NCBI RefSeq assembly: GCF_011927665.1
Contig: NZ_JAATJA010000001.1
Span: 725,019-789,018, forward strand
Length of the DNA: 64,000 bases
DNA from: Desulfobaculum xiamenense
GTDB lineage: Bacteria; Desulfobacterota; Desulfovibrionia; Desulfovibrionales; Desulfovibrionaceae
Reading direction: 5' to 3'
The notes below the pieces were generated by a model. The model did no database searches, had not been told where the DNA came from, and was given only the letters and a program-made list of their open reading frames with translations. Positions 53,494 through 64,000 of this stretch are shown here, piece after piece (the first letter of the stretch is position 1; the number at the start of each line of letters is the position of its first letter). Both the position numbers and the translations under genes were made by a program.

Positions 53494-54180
53494 ATGCGGT
53501 CATCCAATCGCCCCGACTCTTCCTGCCCCACCCGGGAGGCCTCCCGAGTCGACAGGGATTTTCCGCCCACGCCCGATGAGCTGGACATTCGCATCCCCTT
53601 CGACCCCGACGAATTCTTCGTCCCGGACGACGCGACCTGCGAACGCTACTGGGACCAGCGCGACATGCCGGAACACATCCGCAACCATTCGACCAACGTG
53701 GCGCTCATCGCCACGGCGATGGCCCGTCGCGCCGCAGAAAAAAACCTCATCCGCGGAGACGCCGCCGTACAGGCGGTACGCTCCTCGGCCCTCTTGCACG
53801 ATCTCGCCAAGATCTACTGCATCACCCACGGCGGGCATCATAGCCAGCTCGGCGCGGCATGGGTCATGGAGCACACGGGCAACCCACTCCTCGCGCAGGG
53901 CGTGCTGCACCACGTATGGTGGCCCTTCACCGTGGACCCCATCCGCCACTTCCTGCCGCTTGCCGTGCTCTACGCGGACAAGCGCGTCCGCCACGACGAG
54001 ATAGTCCCCCTTGGCGTACGCTTCTCGGACCTCTTCGAGCGCTACGGGAAGAACGACACGGCGCGCGACCGCATCGGACAGGCGCTGGCCCAATCCCAGG
54101 CCATAGAAAACTGCTTCAACGAACATCTCAAGGTAGATCTCAATGCGTGTACTTTTGATTGCGGGCGGCTGGTCGACTGA
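53494..54180 (+). CDS. HD-domain phosphohydrolase
   Basis: The 228-residue protein has an HD domain. HIRNHSTNVALIATAMARRA supplies the first His, ALLHDLAKIYC the HD pair (about residue 105-106), and HGGHHSQLGA with LHHVWWPF further metal ligands. Proteins of this type act on nucleotides or other phosphoesters; the substrate is unknown. The ATG at 53494 follows AAGGA at a rather long distance; no better start is seen. Its last 38 nt overlap ddl, so it is co-translated with the cell-wall ligase. Confidence 0.85.
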   Translation: MRSSNRPDSSCPTREASRVDRDFPPTPDELDIRIPFDPDEFFVPDDATCERYWDQRDMPEHIRNHSTNVALIATAMARRAAEKNLIRGDAAVQAVRSSALLHDLAKIYCITHGGHHSQLGAAWVMEHTGNPLLAQGVLHHVWWPFTVDPIRHFLPLAVLYADKRVRHDEIVPLGVRFSDLFERYGKNDTARDRIGQALAQSQAIENCFNEHLKVDLNACTFDCGRLVD

Positions 54181-55045
54181 ACGGGAAGTCTCCCTGTGCG
54201 GCGCCAAGGCCGTCCGCGCCGCGCTCGAACAGCTCGGGCACGACGTCACGTTTCTCGACCTTTCCGAATCCTTCGATAGCCTGATCGAAACCGCCCGTCG
54301 GCACGATTTCGCGTTCATCAATCTGCACGGCGCTCCCGGCGAGGACGGACTTGTGCAGGCCATGCTCGATACCGTGGGCTGCCCCTATCAGGGCTCCGGC
54401 CCCGCCGGTTCCTTCCTCGCGCTGAACAAGGCCGCCGCCAAGAACGTCTTCCGCGCGAACGGCATCCTCACGCCGGACTGGCAGCTCGTCACGTCCCACC
54501 CGGACGCGGACTGGAAGCCCGCCATGCCCTGCCCCCTGTTCGCCAAGCCCAACACCGGCGGATCGAGCCTCGGCATGAGCATGGTTCGAAGCGAGGAGGA
54601 ACTCGCCCCCGCCCTCGACAAGATTTTCGCCCTCGGCGAGACGGCGCTCCTCGAACCGCTGGTTCGCGGCAAGGAAGTCACCTGCTCCATCCTCGGCGAT
54701 GAAGCGCTGCCGCTCATTCTCATCGAGCCGACAGCCAAGGCCGGCTACTTCGACTATGACAATAAATACAAGCCCGGCATGGCCCGCGAAATCTGCCCCG
54801 CACCCATCGACGAGACCGTGGCGAAGAAGATCAGCACCGCCACGCTGACCGCGCACCGCTCCCTCGGCCTGTACGGCTACAGCCGTGGCGACTTCATCGT
54901 CGACGGCGACACGGCCTACCTGCTGGAGATGAACACCCTTCCCGGCATGACGCCCACGAGCCTCGTCCCGCAGGCGGCGGCGCAGGCCGGAATGGACTTC
55001 CCCGCCCTCATCGGCAGGCTCATCGAACTGGGGCTGGCACGATGA
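54143..55045 (+). CDS. ddl: D-alanine--D-alanine ligase
   Basis: Ddl makes the D-Ala-D-Ala dipeptide of peptidoglycan from the product of alr. The 300-residue ATP-grasp protein has LIAGGWSTEREVSLCGA, HGAPGEDGLVQA, KPNTGGSSLGM and the ATP/Mg loop LLEMNTLPGMTPTSLVP. Length and motifs are complete. It overlaps the HD gene by 38 nt and waaA by 4 nt (ATGA), forming a tightly coupled envelope operon. Confidence 0.95.
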   Translation: MRVLLIAGGWSTEREVSLCGAKAVRAALEQLGHDVTFLDLSESFDSLIETARRHDFAFINLHGAPGEDGLVQAMLDTVGCPYQGSGPAGSFLALNKAAAKNVFRANGILTPDWQLVTSHPDADWKPAMPCPLFAKPNTGGSSLGMSMVRSEEELAPALDKIFALGETALLEPLVRGKEVTCSILGDEALPLILIEPTAKAGYFDYDNKYKPGMAREICPAPIDETVAKKISTATLTAHRSLGLYGYSRGDFIVDGDTAYLLEMNTLPGMTPTSLVPQAAAQAGMDFPALIGRLIELGLAR

Positions 55046-56337
55046 TCGAAGCCCAGCCCCTGCGCCCCTACCCCCGTGCCACGACGCGGGCGCTGTTGGG
55101 GCTATACAATCTGGTCTGGCCGCTGGCCATGCCAGCCCTCGCGCTATCCCGGCGGATGCGCGACGGCTGGCGTGAACGTGTGCTGCTCAACGGTCCCGAG
55201 GGCCCGGTGGACATCTGGATGCAGGCCGCTTCCGCTGGTGAGGCCTACCTCGCCGAAGAGTTGCTCATGGCCCTTCCGGACGACAAGCCGCTTCGAGTGT
55301 TGGTGACCTCCGGCACGCGGCAGGGCATGGACATCCTCGCCAAGGCCTGTGAAAAGGCGGCCTCCAAGCCCATGCTGGCCACCCGGCAGGCCTTCTTCCC
55401 GCTCGACATGCCCGCGCTCATGGACATGGCCATGAAACGCTTCTCCCCGCGCCTCATGGTCATCCTCGAAACCGAACTGTGGCCCGGCCTGCTCTGGGCG
55501 GCCCGCAAAAACGAAATCCCGGCCATCATCGTCAACGGCCGCATGAGCGCGTCGAGCCTCGGCGGCTACATGGCCGCAGGAAGCTTCCTGCGCGACATCG
55601 CCCCGGAACGCGTACTCGCCATCGCAGGCACCTCGGCCAAGCGCTTCTCCCTCGTCTTCGGGTCCGACCGTGTCGAGGAAATGCAGAACATCAAGTTCGA
55701 CCGATGCCCGCTGGAAGCCGCCCAGCCCGCGCCAGACGCCCCGGTTGCCCGCATCCTCGGCAATGCCGCGCCGCTAGCCATCTTCGGCTCCGTACGCAGC
55801 AAGGAGGAGACGGAGGTCGTCCGCGCCATCGCCCGCGTGCGCGAGGCGCGCCCCGACGCGCTGACGGCCCTGTTCCCGAGGCACATGCACAGGCTCGACT
55901 TTTGGGCAAAAGCCCTGTATGAAGCCGGGTTGCCCGTTGTGCTGCGCTCGCAGCTCACCGAAACGCCACCCGCTGGGACGACCGTCCTCTGGGACGCCTT
56001 CGGAGAACTGGGCGCGGCCTACGGCTTCGCCTCGGCCGCCTTTGTCGGCGGTAGCCTGCACCCTCTGGGCGGGCAGAACTTCCTTGAACCCCTGATTCAC
56101 GGCGTCACACCCGTCATCGGTCCCCACTGGAAGAACTTCGATTGGATCGGCCGCGAGATCATCGACTGCGGCCTCGTGCACGAAGTCACCGATGCCGACG
56201 CGCTGGCGGACCAATTGATCAGAAACCTGAACCAGCCGGAACCTCGGGAATCCGTACGCGACCGCGCCACCCGCTACATAGCGGAACGCCGGGGCGGCAC
56301 GGCCCAGGCAGCGGCCTGCATAGCCAGGTATCTCTAG
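55042..56337 (+). CDS. waaA: 3-deoxy-D-manno-octulosonic acid transferase
   Basis: WaaA attaches Kdo from CMP-Kdo to lipid A. The 431-residue protein has the family motifs [17 protein letters not shown] with the catalytic Glu, [15 protein letters not shown], and the GT-B C-terminal [18 protein letters not shown]. The usual ASVGE reads ASAGE here. The ATG overlaps the ddl stop. kdsB, which makes its donor, follows after 2 nt. Confidence 0.94.
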
Positions 56338-56339
56338 AC

Positions 56340-57083
56340 ATGCCCAAACTTCCACCCTGCTACGGCATCATCCCCGCGCGGTACGGCTCGTCCCGCTTCG
56401 AGGGCAAGCCGTTGGCCGACATACTCGGCCGCCCCATGTTCTGGCACGTCTACCAGCGCGCCATCCAGTGCCCGCTGTTCGGCAAGGTCGTGGTGGCCAC
56501 GGATGACAACCGCATCTACTCCGCGGCATGCAAGTACAACATCCCGGTGGTCATGACCTCCGCGAACCATGCCAGCGGCACGGATCGCGTGCTGGAAGCC
56601 GCCGAGATGCTCTCGCTGCCCGAGGATGCCGTGGTGGCAAACATACAGGGCGACGAACCGCTTCTCGCCCCGGCCATGCTTACGGAACTGCTGGAACCCT
56701 TCGCAGATCCCGACATCCGCGTCACAACCCTCGCCACCCGGATCAGCGCCGAAGAGGCGCAAAGCCCGGATCAGGTGAAGGTTGTCTGGACCAGAAGCGG
56801 CTCGGCACTGTACTTTTCAAGAGCACCCATCCCCTTCGTCCGCGATGGCGGCGAAGGGACCTACTGGGGGCACATCGGTCTCTACGCCTTCCGCATGAGC
56901 ACGCTCCGGCGCTTCGTCGCCCTGGGACAAAGCGAGCTCGAAGGTTTGGAGAAGCTTGAGCAGCTGCGGCTGCTGGAAAACGACATTCCCATCTACGTCG
57001 TTCCCACCCAGCACCGCACGCACGGCGTGGACCGTCCCGAAGACATCGACAAAGTCATCAAAGCTTTATCGGAGAACAGTTGA
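56340..57083 (+). CDS. kdsB: 3-deoxy-manno-octulosonate cytidylyltransferase
   Basis: KdsB activates Kdo as CMP-Kdo for WaaA. The 247-residue enzyme has the signatures [25 protein letters not shown] (metal/Kdo binding) and YFSRAPIPF, with HIGLYAFR in the dimer region. The ATG at 56340 starts 2 nt after waaA. The stop overlaps the carA start (TGATG). Length is normal. Confidence 0.96.
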
Positions 57084-58213
57084 TGAAAGCCATTCTAGCC
57101 CTGGAAGACGGCACCTGGTTCGAGGGCCGCTCCTTCACCGGCCACGGCAACGCCGGAGGCGAGGCCATCTTCAACACCGGAATGACCGGCTATCAGGAGG
57201 TCCTCACCGACCCCTCCTACGCCGGACAGATGGTGTGCATGACCTATCCCCTTGTGGGCAACTACGGCGTGAACCTTGAGGATGTCGAATCCTCCAGGGT
57301 CTGGGTCGAGGCGTTCATCGTCAAGGAATGCTGCAAGGTGCCGAGCAACTGGCGCTCCGTGAAGAGCCTGCCCGACTACCTCGTCGAACACGGCGTGATG
57401 GGCATCGAGGGCATCGACACCCGCGCCCTCACCCGCCATCTGCGCCTGCATGGCGCCATGCGCGCCATCATCAGCACCGACGACGTCACCCCGCAGGAAC
57501 TCGTGGACCGCGCACGCGCGCTGCCCTCCATGGAAGGCCAGAACCTCACCGCCCGCGTCTGCCCCGCCGAACCCTACGTCTGGACGGCGCAAGGCCCGCG
57601 CTCCGTGTCCCTTGAGGACGACGGCTCCTACCGCTGGCCCGGCAACGGCCCCAAGGTCGTGGCGTACGACTTCGGCGTGAAGTGGAACATCCTGCGCCTT
57701 CTGGCCGCCGAAGGGCTGGACCTGCTGATGGTTCCCCCGAGCTTCACCGCCGAACAGGTGGACCGCCTTGCCCCGGATGCGGTATTCCTTTCCAATGGCC
57801 CCGGCGACCCCGCCACCCTCACGGATGTCGTGGCGAACGTGTCCCAGTTGGCGGACCGCTATCCGCTGGCGGGCATCTGCCTTGGCCACCAGATTCTGGG
57901 ACAGGCGCTCGGCGGCAAGACCTACAAGCTCAAGTTCGGCCACCACGGCCTGAACCACCCGGTCAAGGACCTGACCACCGGTCGCATCGAGATTTCCTCC
58001 CAGAACCACGGGTTCTGCGTGGACATCACGAGCCTCAAGGATGTGGAAATCACCCACATCAACCTGAACGACCAGACGCTTGAAGGATTCCGCCACACGA
58101 AGAAGCCCGTGCTCGCCATCCAGCATCACCCCGAGGCTGGCCCCGGCCCGCACGACAGCCAGTACTTCTTCCACCGCTTCCGCGAACTCATCAGGGAGCA
58201 TGCCGGCGTCTAA
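57083..58213 (+). CDS. carA: Carbamoyl-phosphate synthase, small (glutaminase) subunit
   Basis: CarA hydrolyses glutamine and passes ammonia to CarB for carbamoyl phosphate, a precursor of arginine and pyrimidines. The 376-residue protein has the N-terminal CarA domain ([21 protein letters not shown]) and a class-I amidotransferase domain with [10 protein letters not shown] (nucleophile Cys) and [10 protein letters not shown] (catalytic His/Glu). GGAGAACAG lies upstream; the adjacent TTG at 57080 is a less likely start. carB is not adjacent. Carbamoyl phosphate also feeds HypF, but that link is only suggestive. Confidence 0.95.
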
Positions 58214-58279: not shown

Positions 58280-59101
58280 ATGTCTACCGAACTCATCAAG
58301 GCTCGCACCCAACTGGCCGGAATATCGCGGTACCTGAAGCAGGACAAGCTGCTTCCGGCCATCGTCAGCCTGCATGACGCGCTGAACATCATCCTGCGCA
58401 CGCCGCTCATGGGGCACGAGAAAAAGGAGTTCGCGACATCCGTCGAGCAGGCGCTCTACGTCCTCAACCACGATGCCGAGTTCAAAAAGGTCTGCCCCAT
58501 CATCCTCGAATACCACGAGGGCGGAGAACGGCAGCTCCTATCGAGCCTCAAGGAACTGCTGGAGGACCTTCAGGGCACGGCCGTGGACGAGGCCAAGCAG
58601 CTTCTGGCCGCCATCGAGGAGCAGAAGGTCATCGGCCTCAAGCGCGGCGAGGAGCTCCTCGCCCGCAAGAAGTTCAAGGACGCCAAGTTCGTCTTCAACA
58701 AGCTGGTGCTCCAGTTCGCCGACGATACGGACCTGAAGACCCAGATCGCCGAAATGTTGCTCAAGGCCGAACGCCACGAGGACGCGCTGGAATTCCTGAC
58801 GCAGGCGCTCAAGGAATTCCCCGAGTCCGCGCACCTGTACAACCGGGTGGGCATGGTCCTGCGCAAGATGACGCGCTTCGAAATGTCCGAGAAGTACTAC
58901 GCCAAGGCCCTCAAGCTGGCCAAGGAAGACCCCGGCCTGTACTTCAACATCGGCAGGCTCTACATCGACTGGAAGAAGTGGGACAAGGTCGCGCGGGTTG
59001 CGGCGATGGCCGTGAAGCTGTCGCCAGATTTCACCGAAGCCCGCAAGATGCTCACCTTCGCCAAGAAAAAAATGTCCGCCGCGGCATCGAAGTCCGAATA
59101 G
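58280..59101 (+). CDS. TPR-repeat protein
   Basis: The 273-residue soluble, helical protein has tetratricopeptide repeats in its C-terminal half (about 130-260), e.g. KAERHEDALEFLTQALKEFP and LKLAKEDPGLYFNIGRLYID. The N-terminal half is a helical region of unknown fold. TPRs make protein contacts; the partner is unknown. CAAGGAAACGGA precedes the ATG at 58280. It ends the envelope/carA run and is followed by a strong terminator. Confidence 0.85.
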   Translation: MSTELIKARTQLAGISRYLKQDKLLPAIVSLHDALNIILRTPLMGHEKKEFATSVEQALYVLNHDAEFKKVCPIILEYHEGGERQLLSSLKELLEDLQGTAVDEAKQLLAAIEEQKVIGLKRGEELLARKKFKDAKFVFNKLVLQFADDTDLKTQIAEMLLKAERHEDALEFLTQALKEFPESAHLYNRVGMVLRKMTRFEMSEKYYAKALKLAKEDPGLYFNIGRLYIDWKKWDKVARVAAMAVKLSPDFTEARKMLTFAKKKMSAAASKSE

Positions 59102-59173
59102 ACTCCGGGCAGCGCGCCCATCTCCCTCGCTTTCGTCGCACTCGCCGCACATGCGGCGTTTCCCCGAAACGAC

Positions 59174-59204
59174 AAGGCCCTCGCTCCGGCGAGGGCCTTT
59201 TTTC
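59174..59204 (+). terminator. Intrinsic terminator after TPR gene
   Basis: The 11-bp stem AAGGCCCTCGC/GCGAGGGCCTT with a 4-nt loop is followed by a T-run. Confidence 0.95.
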
Positions 59205-59332
59205 TCTTCGAGGGCATGGCACCCGGCAGATTGTTCATTCGCTGAACGATGAATCCCCCCGTCATGGACGGATTTTCCGCACCGTCTCCAAAGCCGTCGA
59301 AATTCCGACAAAAACCGCCCCCGAAGCGAAAT

Positions 59333-59359
59333 GGTTATCCTACCGAAATTTCAGGTTAT
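59333..59359 (+). repeat. Direct repeat in AT-rich leader
   Basis: GGTTAT occurs at 59333-59338 and 59354-59359, exactly 21 bp apart (two helical turns), about 70-90 bp upstream of the -35 box at 59423. It may be a regulator site. The gap 59205-59494 is otherwise AT-rich and non-coding. Confidence 0.35.
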
Positions 59360-59422
59360 TCAGAGGGCGCATTTTCACCGCCGTCGGCCCAACTTCGTCA
59401 CACACCGCAATCGCTGTCTTCT

Positions 59423-59451
59423 TTGACAGTGGCGCACGCCTTGCATATAAA
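59423..59451 (+). promoter_or_regulatory. Consensus sigma-70 promoter of the neuB locus
   Basis: TTGACA (59423-59428), 17 bp, then TATAAA (59446-59451). This is the best sigma-70 match in the window. It would start transcription near 59458, about 37 nt before the winged-helix gene. Confidence 0.75.
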
Positions 59452-59494
59452 TGATAAGCTGGTGAACGATCGACACGAACCCGACGGAGACGGC

Positions 59495-60109
59495 ATGCTG
59501 CACATCAACGGCCAATTCCTGCGGCCAAGCACCGAATACCGCACCCTCGCCATCCTAGAGGAACTGGCCGAGGACAACACGCTGAGCCAATCGCAACTCG
59601 GCGAACGAACGGGCCTGTCCGGCGCGATGGTCAATCACTACCTGAAGGACCTGCGCGACAGGAACATCCTCGACGTCCGGCCCCTCAACGCCCGCAGCAA
59701 CGAATACGTCCTCACCGCACAGGGCGAGCGCCTGCGCCGCGACCTCTTCGCCGACTACTGCGCGGAGATCGTGCGCAGCTACACGGCGCTCAAGCAGCTC
59801 GTGCATCGCAAGCTCGCCGGGCTGGAGCGCGACGGCAGACGCCGCCTCGTCTTCTTCGGCGCATCGGAGACCTGCGAAATCGCCCTGTCCGCCGTGCGTG
59901 CCATGAATCTCACCGTGCTCGCGCTTCTGGACAACAACCCTGCCAAGCACGGCGAGGTGCTGGCTGGGCACACCATTTTTCCCCCGCGCGTCATCGAAAG
60001 CATCGGTTGCGACGCCATCGTCGTCACGTCCTTCGGACAGGCGGACGACATTCTCAAACAGGTGCGCCCGCTGGCCGAAACCCGAAACATCCCGGTGGTA
60101 AGACTATGA
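59495..60109 (+). CDS. Winged-helix / Rossmann-like fusion regulator of surface-sugar locus
   Basis: The 204-residue protein has an N-terminal winged helix-turn-helix (about 10-75: LSQSQLGERTGLSGAMVNHY recognition region, then LTAQGERLRRDLF). The C-terminal Rossmann-like domain (about 105-204) has FFGASETCEIALSA followed by LLDNNPAKHGEVLAGHTIFP, a pattern like the nucleotide-binding part of sugar acyltransferases and oxidoreductases. It probably senses a nucleotide sugar or cofactor and controls the operon; that is inference. ATG 59495 has GGAGACGGC upstream. ATGA overlap with neuB couples the two. Confidence 0.75.
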   Translation: MLHINGQFLRPSTEYRTLAILEELAEDNTLSQSQLGERTGLSGAMVNHYLKDLRDRNILDVRPLNARSNEYVLTAQGERLRRDLFADYCAEIVRSYTALKQLVHRKLAGLERDGRRRLVFFGASETCEIALSAVRAMNLTVLALLDNNPAKHGEVLAGHTIFPPRVIESIGCDAIVVTSFGQADDILKQVRPLAETRNIPVVRL

Positions 60110-61185
60110 GAACGGTCCCCTTCATCCGCCTGCCCCACGGCGCAGCCATCGGCCACGAGGCCCCTTGCTTCGTCATCGCCGAAATCGGCAACAACCATCA
60201 GGGCGACCTCGACATCGCCCGCGCCATGGTGCGTAGCGCCGCAGAGGCCGGTGCGGACGCGGTGAAGTTCCAGAAGCGCGACAACGCCGCGCTCTTCACC
60301 CGCGAAGGGCTGGACGCTCCCTACACCGGCCCAAACAGCTTCGGCCCCACCTACGGCGAGCACCGCCGCGCACTGGAACTCGACTTCGAACAGCTCGAAC
60401 AGCTCAAGCGGCAGGCCGAGGCACTGGGCATGGTCTTCTTCGCCTCGGCGTGGGACATGCCAAGCCTCGACGGGCTGGCCGCCATGGGCGTGGAACTGTT
60501 CAAGGTGGCCTCCGCCGACCTCGTGAACGTCCCCATGCTGCGCCGCATCGCCGCTCTGGGGCGACCGGTGCTGCTGTCCACGGGCATGAGCACCCTCGCC
60601 GAGATCGACCTCGCCGTGAACGAACTGGACCGCTCGCGCACCGTTCTGCTGCACTGCAACAGTTCCTACCCCTGCCCGCCGGAGGAGACCGCCATCCCGG
60701 TCATGAACCGCCTGCGCACGCGCTACGGCCTGCCCGTGGGCTACTCCGGGCACGAGGGCGGCATCGCGCCGAGCCTTGCGGCGGTGGCGCACGGGGCCTG
60801 CGTGGTGGAACGCCATTTCACGCTCGACCGCACCATGCGCGGCACCGACCACACCGCATCCCTCGACCCCGCAGAGTTCGCCCACCTCGTCCTCATGATT
60901 CGTGAAACCGAGGCCGCGCTTCGCATCACCGACAAGCGCGTCTTCGAGGCGGAAGCCCGTTGCGCCGCGAAATTGCGGAAGAGCATCGTCGCCGCACGAA
61001 ATCTCACCGCAGGCACGATGCTGACAGAGTCGGACATCACCGTACGCTGCCCCGGCACCGGCATTTCCCCGGCCGCGTGGGACGAGGTGATCGGGCGCGT
61101 CCTCGTGCGCGACATTGCGGCGGACGGCCAGCTTGCATGGGACGCCATGCTCGCGAAACAGCCCTTGCGGGCCGCGGCGGAATAA
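60106..61185 (+). CDS. neuB: N-acetylneuraminate/legionaminate/pseudaminate synthase (NeuB family)
   Basis: NeuB-family enzymes condense PEP with a 6-carbon amino sugar to make a nonulosonic acid. The 359-residue protein has the TIM barrel (IAEIGNNHQGDLDIARAMV, AVKFQKRD, LLSTGMSTLAEID, HCNSSYPCPPEE, GYSGHEGG, ERHFTLDRTMRGTDH) and a C-terminal SAF antifreeze-like domain (about 295-355). Which sugar is made cannot be told. The other steps (epimerase and CMP-transferase) are not in the window and may lie beyond it. Overlaps the winged-helix gene by 4 nt. Confidence 0.92.
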   Translation: MRTVPFIRLPHGAAIGHEAPCFVIAEIGNNHQGDLDIARAMVRSAAEAGADAVKFQKRDNAALFTREGLDAPYTGPNSFGPTYGEHRRALELDFEQLEQLKRQAEALGMVFFASAWDMPSLDGLAAMGVELFKVASADLVNVPMLRRIAALGRPVLLSTGMSTLAEIDLAVNELDRSRTVLLHCNSSYPCPPEETAIPVMNRLRTRYGLPVGYSGHEGGIAPSLAAVAHGACVVERHFTLDRTMRGTDHTASLDPAEFAHLVLMIRETEAALRITDKRVFEAEARCAAKLRKSIVAARNLTAGTMLTESDITVRCPGTGISPAAWDEVIGRVLVRDIAADGQLAWDAMLAKQPLRAAAE

Positions 61186-61199
61186 GAGGAATACTCGCC

Positions 61200-62150
61200 A
61201 TGCGCATCCTGATGATCGCCATCAACGACCCCGCCGGAACGGCCATCGGCTTCGCCGACGCGCTCAACCGCCTGACGGACCACTTCTGCCGCGTGGTAAC
61301 GCTGGAGACCCGCTACACCCACTCGTGGCGCAAGGACCTCCACGTCCCGGACCTCGACGAGGCAGGGCTTGAGGAACTGCACGGCGAGCTGACCAACGCG
61401 GACGTCTTCCACTTCCACATGACGGCGGACGAGCATCTGCGCCTCGGCCCCTTTCTCCCGGCCGACCACCTGCATGGCAAGACGCTGGTGCATCACCATC
61501 ACGGGCACCCGGACTTCCGGGGCAACCCCGGAAAGTATCGCGATAAATACGCCCGGCTTGGGCGCGAGAACCTGCTGGTGAGCACGCCGGACCTGCTGCG
61601 CCTGTTGCCTGAGGCCACATGGCAGCCGAACCTCGTGCCGGAAACAGCGCCCCTCTACACGCCGCTGGACGAACGCCCCTGCGGCCCCGTGCGTCTGGCC
61701 CATTCCCCCACGCGAAGGGATCTCAAGAACACGGACGATCTGCTGGACGTGCTGGCGAGCATGGACGGCAACGGGCCGCGGCTGGAACTCATCGACAACG
61801 CGCCCCACGAGGAATGCCTGCGTCGCAAGCGCCGCTGCCACATGCAGTTCGACCACATGCAGGGCTATTACGGCATGAGCAGTCTGGAAGGATTGAGTCA
61901 GGGCCTACCCACGGTGGCGGGGCTGGACGACTGGTGCGCCGCCCACATGCGCGAATTCGCGGATACGGGCGACCTGCCGTGGGTGGTGGCGCGGGGGCGC
62001 GAGGAACTGACGCGGACCATCCGCACCCTCACGGCGGACAGCGACCTGCGCGATGCCATTGGTGCACGCAGCCGCGATTTCATGGAACGCCACTGGAGCG
62101 AGCGCAAGGTGGTGGAACGGCTGTGCGGCTTCTACGACACCCTGCGCTGA
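61200..62150 (+). CDS. Glycosyltransferase (GT-B type)
   Basis: The 316-residue protein has a GT-B-like layout. An N-terminal acceptor domain contains DVFHFHMTADEHL and LVHHHHGHPDFRG, and a C-terminal domain contains LAHSPTRRDLKNTDDL and YYGMSSLEGLSQGLPTVAG, the usual donor-site end. ATG 61200 has AGAGGAA upstream. It lies 14 nt after neuB and probably transfers a sugar onto the glycan of this locus. The exact family number cannot be assigned. Confidence 0.78.
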   Translation: MRILMIAINDPAGTAIGFADALNRLTDHFCRVVTLETRYTHSWRKDLHVPDLDEAGLEELHGELTNADVFHFHMTADEHLRLGPFLPADHLHGKTLVHHHHGHPDFRGNPGKYRDKYARLGRENLLVSTPDLLRLLPEATWQPNLVPETAPLYTPLDERPCGPVRLAHSPTRRDLKNTDDLLDVLASMDGNGPRLELIDNAPHEECLRRKRRCHMQFDHMQGYYGMSSLEGLSQGLPTVAGLDDWCAAHMREFADTGDLPWVVARGREELTRTIRTLTADSDLRDAIGARSRDFMERHWSERKVVERLCGFYDTLR

Positions 62151-62161
62151 AACACTCCGCA

Positions 62162-63094
62162 ATGAAAAGCAAACTCTTTCCCACGGCCCTGCGCATCGTC
62201 ATCCCCTGCCACAACTGCGGGCAGTGGATAACCGAATGTCTGGAATCCATCGTGACACAGGATTTCGAGAACTGGACGGTCCTCGTGGCGGACGACGCCT
62301 CCACGGACGACACCACGCTGGCCGCGCAGGCGTTCCTCGACGATCCGCGCATCACCCTGCGCACGCTACCCGAACGGACGTGGCTGATGGGCAACACGCT
62401 CTCGGCGCTGGACGAGGTGGCTCCGGGCCCGGCGGACGTGGTGGCCATCGTGGACGGGGACGACAGGCTCCTGCCCGGAGCGCTGTCGGCAATATGGGAA
62501 GCCCATTCGCAGGGCTACGACGTGGTCTGGACGGACATGGACATTCAGGGCATCACCGGCTCCACAGGCGCGGCGCTCATTCCCGGCGTTCCCGTACGCC
62601 AGCAGTTGTGGTGCCTGTCGCAACTTCGAAGCTTCAAGGGCTATCTGCTCGAAGGACTCGACCGCGAGGCCGTAAACGGTGCCGATGGCCGTCCGGTCCG
62701 CGCCGGGGGCGACCTCGCGCTCTACTTTCAGCTCATCGAACGCGCCGGGATGTGGAAGACGCACTTCCTCCCCGAACGCCTCTACTGGTACCGCGTTCAC
62801 CCCGGCAACAACTGCACAGCGCTACGCGGCGAACAACTGGCCAACAACCGCCGCATCCGGGCGTTGCCACCACTTCCCGTGCAGACCAGCCATTTCGATA
62901 TCCACATCGAAGCCGATGGACTCGAAAAGCTGAGGCTTCGCGCCTTCGGCCAACGCGTCCGGGCAGAGCATCCGCTCCCCCTCTCGGTCTGCGTCCACCA
63001 TGGCGACGGCAACGGCGACGGATGGACGGCCTACGACGGACTGTGGATCGCCGAGGGCGTGTTTCTCACAAACTCGCCGATGCCCCGCTCATAA
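62162..63094 (+). CDS. Glycosyltransferase family 2
   Basis: The 310-residue GT-A enzyme has RIVIPCHNCGQWITECLESI, VADDASTDDTT and AIVDGDDRLLPGAL, the last being the nucleotide-sugar/metal DxD region. The C-terminal part contains FLPERLYWYRVHPGNN, common in surface-glycan GT2 enzymes. It follows the previous gene after 11 nt. Its last 29 nt overlap the convergent gene on the other strand. Confidence 0.85.
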   Translation: MKSKLFPTALRIVIPCHNCGQWITECLESIVTQDFENWTVLVADDASTDDTTLAAQAFLDDPRITLRTLPERTWLMGNTLSALDEVAPGPADVVAIVDGDDRLLPGALSAIWEAHSQGYDVVWTDMDIQGITGSTGAALIPGVPVRQQLWCLSQLRSFKGYLLEGLDREAVNGADGRPVRAGGDLALYFQLIERAGMWKTHFLPERLYWYRVHPGNNCTALRGEQLANNRRIRALPPLPVQTSHFDIHIEADGLEKLRLRAFGQRVRAEHPLPLSVCVHHGDGNGDGWTAYDGLWIAEGVFLTNSPMPRS

Positions 63095-64000
63095 GCCGCC
63101 CAAGCTTCAGGAAACGGGCCGTGCGCCCAGAAATGTCCCTCGCGGCCAAGGCGCGCATGAACATCGTCTCCTTGCCCTGACCGACGGCGATATCGAGCGC
63201 CAGCCGCAATTCCTCAAGCCCCGCCTCCAGCCGCATGGCCCGCAGATTCACCAGCCCCAGTTCAAGGCCGATCCGCCAATTGTCCGGCGCGTGGAGCGAC
63301 AGTTCGGACAGCACGCCTAGGCGCAATTCGTCCACGCCTTCCAGCCGCGACAGCACGGTCTCCATGCGGCTCTTGACCTCCATGTCGCCCGGCGCGGCGG
63401 AGTCGGCGGCGATGAGGCTTTCCAATGCCGCCTCGGGCAGACCTTCCACCACGTCATAACGCAGGCCGGGCCGATACAGCGCCCCCCGGCGCACGCACTC
63501 GCGCGACCACGCCAGATGCAGATCACGCGGGGACTCCGGCTTGCACCACTTCGCGCCGCATGCGTCCACCTGCCGGTACCAGAAGCTCTTGGCCATGTCC
63601 CATTCGCCGCAGGCCAGCATGCACATGCTTCCGGCAAAGTTGACGTCGAAGCTCTCGCGATGCGCTGCGGCGTCGAGGATGCCCACGCACGCCGAACGCA
63701 CCTCGTCGCGCCTGTCGATGATGGTCCGCAGCCGTAGCGCCCGTGCCAGAAGCTCCGGATCGGCGGACAGGGCATCGAGCATGGCCAACAGCTTTGCGTC
63801 GTTGCAGATGATGAATTCCGCCTCGCGCAGAATGGCGAGCGTGCGCACGAAGGCCGTCCGCGCCTCAGCCCCACTTGCGGCGCGGCCAGCGGCCTCACTG
63901 GCGATGGACAGGATGGATGCCGCACGATGCGACAGCAGGTGCTCGCGCCGGACGCGTTCCCACGCGGCGCGGGCCATGGCTTGCGCCTCGTCCCTACGGG
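63066..64000 (-). CDS. CgeB-like glycosyltransferase, C-terminal part (runs off right edge)
   Basis: The frame is open to the window edge, so the 5' end is missing. At the edge, ARAAWERVRREHLLSHRAAS is the typical last helix of the CgeB-type GT-B domain. After it, about 285 residues form an alpha-helical, TPR-like extension without a known name (GLELGLVNLRAMRLEAGLEE near the end). An internal ATG at 63977 exists but would cut the domain, so I do not take it as the start. Long glycosyltransferases with such helical tails occur in flagellar and surface glycosylation loci. Confidence 0.7.
   Translation of the reverse strand, partial: RRDEAQAMARAAWERVRREHLLSHRAASILSIASEAAGRAASGAEARTAFVRTLAILREAEFIICNDAKLLAMLDALSADPELLARALRLRTIIDRRDEVRSACVGILDAAAHRESFDVNFAGSMCMLACGEWDMAKSFWYRQVDACGAKWCKPESPRDLHLAWSRECVRRGALYRPGLRYDVVEGLPEAALESLIAADSAAPGDMEVKSRMETVLSRLEGVDELRLGVLSELSLHAPDNWRIGLELGLVNLRAMRLEAGLEELRLALDIAVGQGKETMFMRALAARDISGRTARFLKLGRLMSGASASL

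Follow-up and report, generated by a model that had tools for sequence, protein, structure and literature searches.

A winged-helix/Rossmann protein encoded with neuB in Desulfobaculum xiamenense: a putative autorepressor with a conserved palindrome as its probable operator

A regulator gene joined to neuB

We analyzed a 64,000-nucleotide stretch of the Desulfobaculum xiamenense genome (contig NZ_JAATJA010000001.1, positions 725,019 to 789,018), hereafter the window. At positions 59423-63094 it holds a promoter and four genes, the first of which encodes a protein combining an N-terminal winged helix with a C-terminal Rossmann domain (hereafter the regulator) and the second a NeuB-type synthase (Table 1). 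Across the bacterial family to which this organism belongs, the regulator gene is nearly always followed by neuB, and a 21-bp palindrome is conserved upstream of it; in the window, one copy of this palindrome overlaps the promoter. We propose that the protein is a likely repressor of its own operon.

The initial annotation of this locus described an ATGA junction between the regulator gene and a NeuB-type synthase gene, followed by two glycosyltransferases. The junction is present, with the start codon of neuB running into the regulator stop codon, and the gene order holds. In profile searches, the neuB product matches the Pfam families NeuB (PF03102, 257.2 bits) and SAF (46.0 bits), both above cut-off. 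It shares these two domains with the nonulosonate synthases NeuB and PseI, but its scores fall below both equivalog cut-offs (NeuB_NnaB, 324.4 against 399.65; PseI, 223.6 against 340.25). The fourth gene product matches Glycos_transf_2 with 75 bits; the third is the less certain glycosyltransferase, matching Glyco_trans_1_2 weakly, under cut-off, at E 0.012.

Table 1. Features of the regulator-neuB locus, in window coordinates, and places of tandem palindromes in other genomes
Feature	Position	Strand	Remarks
Terminator-like hairpin	59174-59199	+	11-pair stem, then T-run; 3' of TPR gene
Operator-like site O2	59230-59250		ATTGTTCATTCGCTGAACGAT; position weight matrix (PWM) score 24.5, highest of all sites in 61 loci
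Sigma-70-type promoter	59423-59451	+	TTGACA (59423-59428), 17-bp spacer, TATAAA (59446-59451); 11/12 consensus match
Operator-like site O1	59450-59470		AATGATAAGCTGGTGAACGAT; PWM score 15.9; overlaps the final 2 bp of the -10 box plus the presumed transcription start
Regulator gene	59495-60109	+	204 residues; GGAG at 59486-59489, ATG at 59495, stop at 60107-60109
neuB, NeuB/SAF sialic-acid-type synthase	60106-61185	+	ATG at 60106; ATGA overlap with regulator gene
GT-B-like glycosyltransferase	61200-62150	+	Third gene of unit; weak family match
Family 2 glycosyltransferase	62162-63094	+	Fourth gene of unit
Tandem-site places	G274:C25:85479-85589; G283:C1:1001263-1001326; G337:C20:252-315; G389:C7:58392-58456		Before distant regulators

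Domain structure of the regulator

The regulator comprises a MarR-like winged helix (residues ~10-95), a long linker helix (75-113 in the model), and a Rossmann domain of ~90 residues (~113-204), in keeping with the winged helix and C-terminal nucleotide-binding-like domain first annotated. Its N terminus matches HTH_24 at E 8.7e-10 in the Pfam profile search. The structure model of the protein aligns with BpsR (Z 13.9, 86 residues aligned, root-mean-square deviation (rmsd) 2.0) and MexR (Z 13.3, 83 aligned, rmsd 1.6), and a fold search also relates its winged helix to CggR (Z 12.5). As modeled, then, the N-terminal half has the MarR superfamily fold.

With the whole model, fold searches were swamped by the winged helix or by long alignments of poor quality. 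We therefore folded the C-terminal domain by itself; structure prediction of this domain had been suggested as a check in the initial annotation. The result is a Rossmann fold, matching 3nkl (titled UDP-D-quinovosamine 4-dehydrogenase) with Z 11.3 and PerB (4eaa) with Z 11.1 over 87 residues (rmsd 2.0). Rex repressors come within 1 Z of PerB, scoring 9.3-11.0 among the matches listed; VioB, which was solved with a TDP-amino sugar, scores 9.1 and gonococcal PglB 9.0, and the matches ranked high by Foldseek include biliverdin reductase as well as 3nkl and Rex. In this model, with a predicted local distance difference test (pLDDT) score of 68, the domain thus resembles the N-terminal sugar-nucleotide domain of the PglD, NeuD, PerB, and VioB enzymes, whose acetyltransferase part is not present in the regulator. 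Enzymes of the PglD/NeuD type carry a GxxGHG-like loop and sugar-nucleotide contacts; the corresponding glycine loop of the regulator reads G-A-S-E-T-C-E.

Profile matches of the window protein in this region are Methyltransf_14 (E 1.9e-4, just under cut-off), NeuD_NnaD (E 0.0027, far under a cut-off set for the whole protein), and, weakly, Rex (E 0.079), whereas PglD_N (PF17836) is not listed up to E 1. Among 31 aligned members of the family, NeuD_NnaD and Methyltransf_14 are each matched at E<=0.1 by all 31, PglD_N by 14, and Rex by 12. G122, A123, T126, E128, D146, and G153 are invariant in these 31 sequences. In a more diverse set of 36, 21-46 percent identical to the first row, G122 and E128 are kept in every member and D146 in 32. 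The GxGxxG fingerprint of Rex was found in none of the 31 and none of the 36. Homology and gene context make it plausible that the Rossmann domain is a sensor of a nucleotide sugar; given its altered glycine loop, it may instead bind a different ligand or no ligand at all. In one genus (loci L092-L098), the regulator is longer, at 215-250 residues, apparently with extra residues between its two domains.

A conserved palindrome at the regulator promoter

The 21-bp palindrome ATCRTTCA-N5-TGAAYGAT is conserved upstream of the family's regulator gene. A de novo search of the 200 bp before the gene in 31 of 61 loci, non-redundant at <80 percent identity, returned it as ATCaTTCA.T.A.TGAAtGAT with a score of 201.3, compared with 31.6-36.5 in four composition-preserving shuffles; an unconstrained 20-mer (211.5 versus 63.4-74.1 in shuffles) recovered largely the same sites. 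When the locus's own clade was left out of training, the best-scoring site of each locus still fell within the leader for 53 of the 61 family loci.

Two such sites lie in the window leader. Nowhere in the 3.64-Mb genome is the pattern matched more closely than at O2, situated 220 bp upstream of O1: it is the only place with at most one mismatch, and one of just two occurrences of GTTCA-N5-TGAAC there. Paired sites 126-251 bp apart are common among relatives. When the leader is aligned with those of three close relatives, the chief conserved blocks are O2, the promoter, and O1; the TTGAC and TTGCATA blocks are invariant, as is the right half of O1, TGAACGAT.

The promoter that O1 overlaps, claimed in the initial annotation as a consensus sigma-70 element, is the only site on either strand of the 64 kb to match at least 11 of 12 consensus positions with 16-18 spacing. 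A stricter consensus scanner, which accepts only T as the sixth base of the second hexamer, for that reason called no promoter over 59000-63400. The description of the leader as AT-rich was somewhat generous: its GC content of 0.52-0.55 is lower than the 0.635 of the window, making it mildly AT-rich at most.

We rejected a wider regulon in the window genome, where O2 stands alone at one mismatch or fewer and 31 more places with two mismatches look coding by eye; a reversed control pattern gave no places there, but it spells stop codons, so chance is not fully captured by this control. Across 26 family genomes, a strict pattern occurs at 19 places (reversed control, 6), seven of them within 320 bp of the regulator gene. 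Three more lie 0.6-0.9 kb upstream of the regulator, apparently (by eye) inside coding sequence for an acyl-CoA-ligase-like protein, and we take these as chance.

The palindrome core in distant homologues and at MarR_EPS genes

The palindrome follows the regulator beyond its family. Applied to 39 loci of distant homologues, the family motif had its best site of the locus in the leader in 24, against 1.4 expected; the test excluded L155, whose gene lies at a contig end. A de novo search on 32 distant loci alone (8 of 40 were excluded, namely near-duplicates and L155) returned AaTGTTCAta.taTGAACAtT, that is, TGTTCA-N5-TGAACA, with a score of 184.5, compared with 30.6-35.2 in six shuffles and 66.0 in 29 upstream regions of other genes. 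Distant leaders, 14.8 kb in total, contain 37 exact copies of the core GTTCA-N5-TGAAC (in 26 of 40 loci), as opposed to six in the remaining 508 kb.

The same core is found at genes for MarR_EPS (TIGR04176), a family with a related winged helix. Among the 18 analyzed loci that score over the TIGR04176 cut-off, 13 carry it: in 12 it precedes the called start, at -9 to -327, and in one it lies at +84, where the gene start may have been miscalled. A scan of 21 whole genomes gave 66 exact sites, 22 of which (in 17 of the 21) fall from -320 bp to +60 bp of a regulator or MarR_EPS match, against 0.0075 expected, and a reversed control pattern occurs at 14 places in all; these genomes were chosen for good assembly among carriers of the regulator or MarR_EPS, with the motif already known in some. 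The other 44 sites are not at a regulator, and 15 of the 21 inspected lie inside called genes.

Far from the regulator, one genome has the palindrome 67 bp before a gene of the GDP-mannose-dehydratase type (G412:C1:2642580, L232:3081), a possible second target. Before distant regulators in four genomes, two or three GTTCA-N5-TGAAC sites stand in tandem 48-50 bp apart (Table 1), a spacing absent from the counts made for the window's family.

Conservation and gene neighborhoods

The regulator occurs in 60 of 149 genomes of the same bacterial family, in 61 copies (full-length, near-full-length, or split); 65 family genomes matched in all, the remaining five weakly and with the C-terminal half. 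In 60 of the 61 fetched loci, a neuB match lies directly 3' of the regulator, beginning 0-117 bases from where the regulator match ends, and its product is 55-66 percent identical to the window NeuB (the window itself, 100). The single neuB-less copy, L058, comes from a genome (G031) with two copies, the other of which, L082, does have neuB. L058 also lacks the palindrome, with no site scoring above 8 in -260..+10, though the related neighborhoods L076-L081 keep neuB; it is probably a relic left after neuB loss.

The rest of the unit is less constant. We detected a homologue of the first glycosyltransferase (third gene) in 26 of the 61 family loci; the second directly follows it in one other locus only (L041), and in 21 loci a CheV-like gene (identified by eye, with simple calling of open reading frames) comes after neuB. 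The glycosyltransferases are therefore not a fixed part of the unit, and the core module is the regulator plus neuB.

A phylum scan matched 98 of 247 genomes at E<=0.001, of which 45 (3 in the family) span at least 150 profile columns. We fetched 40 distant loci: 38 of the 42 out-of-family matches of at least 150 columns and two from another search. In 38 of them there is a next gene of at least 100 residues (one on the opposite strand), and the families it matches, which overlap, are GDP_Man_Dehyd (11), Epimerase (11), NusG (9), Polysacc_synt_2 (5), NeuB (4), Glycos_transf_1 (3), and UDPG_MGDP_dh (2). With neuB next in the family and mixed sugar genes next in the distant loci, the protein appears to be a polysaccharide-locus regulator generally and a neuB regulator here. 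The initial annotation had asked whether the two domains co-occur elsewhere and whether the neighbors are always sugar genes. The domains do occur together, in the 60 family genomes and in 42 further genomes of the phylum (at least 150 columns); the neighbors are mostly sugar genes.

These NusG-like neighbors, in 9 of 38 distant loci (L140-L179), we take to be of the RfaH/UpxY type; the arrangement suggests paired control of the initiation and elongation of long polysaccharide operons. Searches of plasmid and phage collections gave no match to the regulator. The single match from a contig collection, L004, was set aside: by eye it is the Rossmann portion of an FkbM-type protein with a NeuB-like gene nearby, and not the regulator.

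Comparison with known regulators

MarR_EPS is the nearest named relative. All 31 aligned family members match its profile at E<=0.1, and a polysaccharide or glycan locus is the common setting of MarR_EPS, the window regulator, its family, and the distant homologues. The profile, however, covers 105 positions, and 15 of the 18 called MarR_EPS reading frames are at most 146 residues long, with no room for the Rossmann domain that the 204-residue regulator possesses. The window regulator scores 25.8 bits against the cut-off of 88, and distant homologues with both domains reach up to 81 bits. Judged by its sequence, it is related to MarR_EPS but not a member. MarR_EPS appears as a single line in an expression study (PMC10599003). 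Our literature search, which left subscription journals mostly outside its reach, listed no operator for MarR_EPS or for a winged helix-turn-helix/Rossmann protein.

The suggestion that no named regulator has this architecture was too strong. Rex likewise joins an N-terminal winged helix to a C-terminal Rossmann domain, but its NAD(H) fingerprint is absent from the aligned members of the regulator family, whose gene partners are mostly sugar genes. SorC/DeoR repressors, according to a published account (PMC11229326), combine a (winged) helix-turn-helix with a Rossmann-like effector domain of ~250 residues, related to a glucosamine-6-phosphate enzyme, and control carbohydrate genes. Against the ~250-residue effector domain of SorC, DeoR, and CggR, the regulator has ~90 residues of the PglD/NeuD N-terminal type within a total length below that of the SorC/DeoR effector domain itself. 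The glucosamine-6-phosphate enzyme related to the SorC/DeoR domain is a deaminase. By analogy, the design of the regulator would work like that of the Rex and SorC repressors, yet a defining feature of each is missing from it.

A proposed mechanism and its alternatives

We consider it likely, from sequence and gene context, that the regulator is a dedicated autorepressor of the neuB operon, with its MarR-like half on the palindrome and its Rossmann half as sensor. Because the site accompanies the protein into different neighborhoods and is shared with its winged-helix relatives, we infer that the regulator binds it. A winged-helix dimer would recognize the 21-bp palindrome; bound at O1, it would sit over the end of the -10 box and the point where transcription of both the regulator gene and neuB presumably starts, blocking RNA polymerase, and O2 possibly aids blocking through a DNA loop. 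The Rossmann domain would sense a nonulosonate-pathway metabolite, a nucleotide amino sugar being the likeliest candidate, and the ligand would alter operator affinity such that NeuB synthesis is matched to precursor supply. The initial annotation had likewise pictured a regulator sensing a sugar nucleotide or cofactor of the pathway it controls; control of the operon is backed by the conserved palindrome overlapping the promoter, while the sensing is plausible by homology.

Several observations weigh against this account. Palindrome models of 18 and 20 bp score far below the 21-bp model (85.6 and 90.9), and the shuffles preserved single-base composition only. The best site falls outside the leader in 8 of 61 held-out family loci (L058, L089, and L091 among them) and in 15 of 39 distant loci, the L086 leader scores only 7.7, and 5 of 18 MarR_EPS loci lack the core. 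The exact distant core is rare in the family, with two occurrences in leaders (2 of 61 loci) and none in 1.05 Mb elsewhere, because the family's variant differs. O1 is weakly symmetric, with 10 of 21 positions self-complementary. A search for helical phase in 24 spacings of 126-251 bp gave Rayleigh p values of 0.11-0.43 for periods of 10.0-11.0, leaving looping unsupported by this test. In many loci the sites lie away from the -10 box, which leaves room for activation. On the protein side, the C-terminal profile scores of the window regulator fall short of curated cut-offs, and the structure models are single-sequence predictions of middling confidence (pLDDT 70 for the whole protein, 68 for the C-terminal domain).

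Other readings of the sensor half are conceivable. Shared domain order, the presence of Rex among the best C-terminal structural matches, and the weak profile match would fit a Rex-like redox repressor, whose Rossmann domain senses NAD(H) and couples surface-sugar synthesis to cellular redox state. Although the structures match, GxGxxG is absent from the aligned members, G122 and E128 being invariant instead, and the next-gene partners are mostly sugar genes; we rejected NAD sensing on the missing fingerprint and regard a redox role as very improbable. Alternatively, the Rossmann domain may have no small-molecule ligand and serve in oligomerization or partner binding, for example in sensing the adjacent NeuB or NusG-like protein, as a glycine loop without GxGxxG and tightly linked partner genes would allow. 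We think this unlikely: conservation of G122, E128, and D146 across such divergent members suggests a kept pocket, and the partners vary by lineage while the domain persists.

On the DNA side, an activator recruiting RNA polymerase from upstream sites would explain why many loci have strong sites 150-290 bp ahead of the start codon, in some cases farther upstream than the best promoter match. However, a site adjoins the -10 box in the window and its closest relatives; a promoter so near consensus should not need an activator, and we consider activation distinctly unlikely. The palindrome could also belong to another regulator of the region and merely lie near this gene, but the same core recurs at the regulator in differing neighborhoods and at MarR_EPS genes, and the palindrome is not found at the neuB-less L058; there is scant likelihood of such a coincidence.

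Autorepression of neuB may be one instance of something broader. We tentatively suggest, with some doubt, a phylum-wide family of surface-polysaccharide regulators in which a winged helix of the MarR_EPS type is joined to a sensor recruited from enzymes of the PglD/NeuD type that reads a nucleotide sugar of the controlled pathway, with an ancient GTTCA-N5-TGAAC operator code shared with MarR_EPS; in the window's family, the switch would have become hard-wired to neuB. The palindrome would predict the target from sequence alone, making the group testable across many genomes. If the proposal is true, a sensor borrowed from a sugar-nucleotide enzyme would let a pathway intermediate feed back directly on gene expression. 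Flagella, capsules, and biofilms are decorated with nonulosonates, so regulating neuB would offer a point at which this decoration is controlled.

Genomic surroundings

The hairpin upstream of O2 is the probable upstream border of the regulator-neuB unit; terminator-like hairpins as such are no commoner than chance (three found, shuffled-sequence mean 3.3). Farther upstream, genes at 54143-58213 look by eye like ddl, a KDO transferase gene, kdsB, and the gene for the small subunit of carbamoyl-phosphate synthase, with a family match for the kdsB place only.

The locus had been described as self-contained. A search for a CMP-transferase in the regulator-neuB unit found none; candidates over cut-off lie elsewhere, at C1:818772, C4:77847, and C2:14428, besides the KdsB-type gene at window 56364-56984. 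Other glycan genes adjoin the unit, which is therefore not self-contained. The first of these, on the minus strand at 63066-64000 and running past the window end, encodes the C-terminal part of a 554-residue glycosyltransferase of the Glyco_trans_1_2 type. The ~14 kb of minus strand from 63066 encodes glycosyltransferases, a TylF-type methyltransferase, a radical SAM protein, and an asparagine-synthase-like protein, and a second neuB and a cytidylyltransferase gene lie ~29 kb and ~34 kb from the regulator, also on the minus strand.

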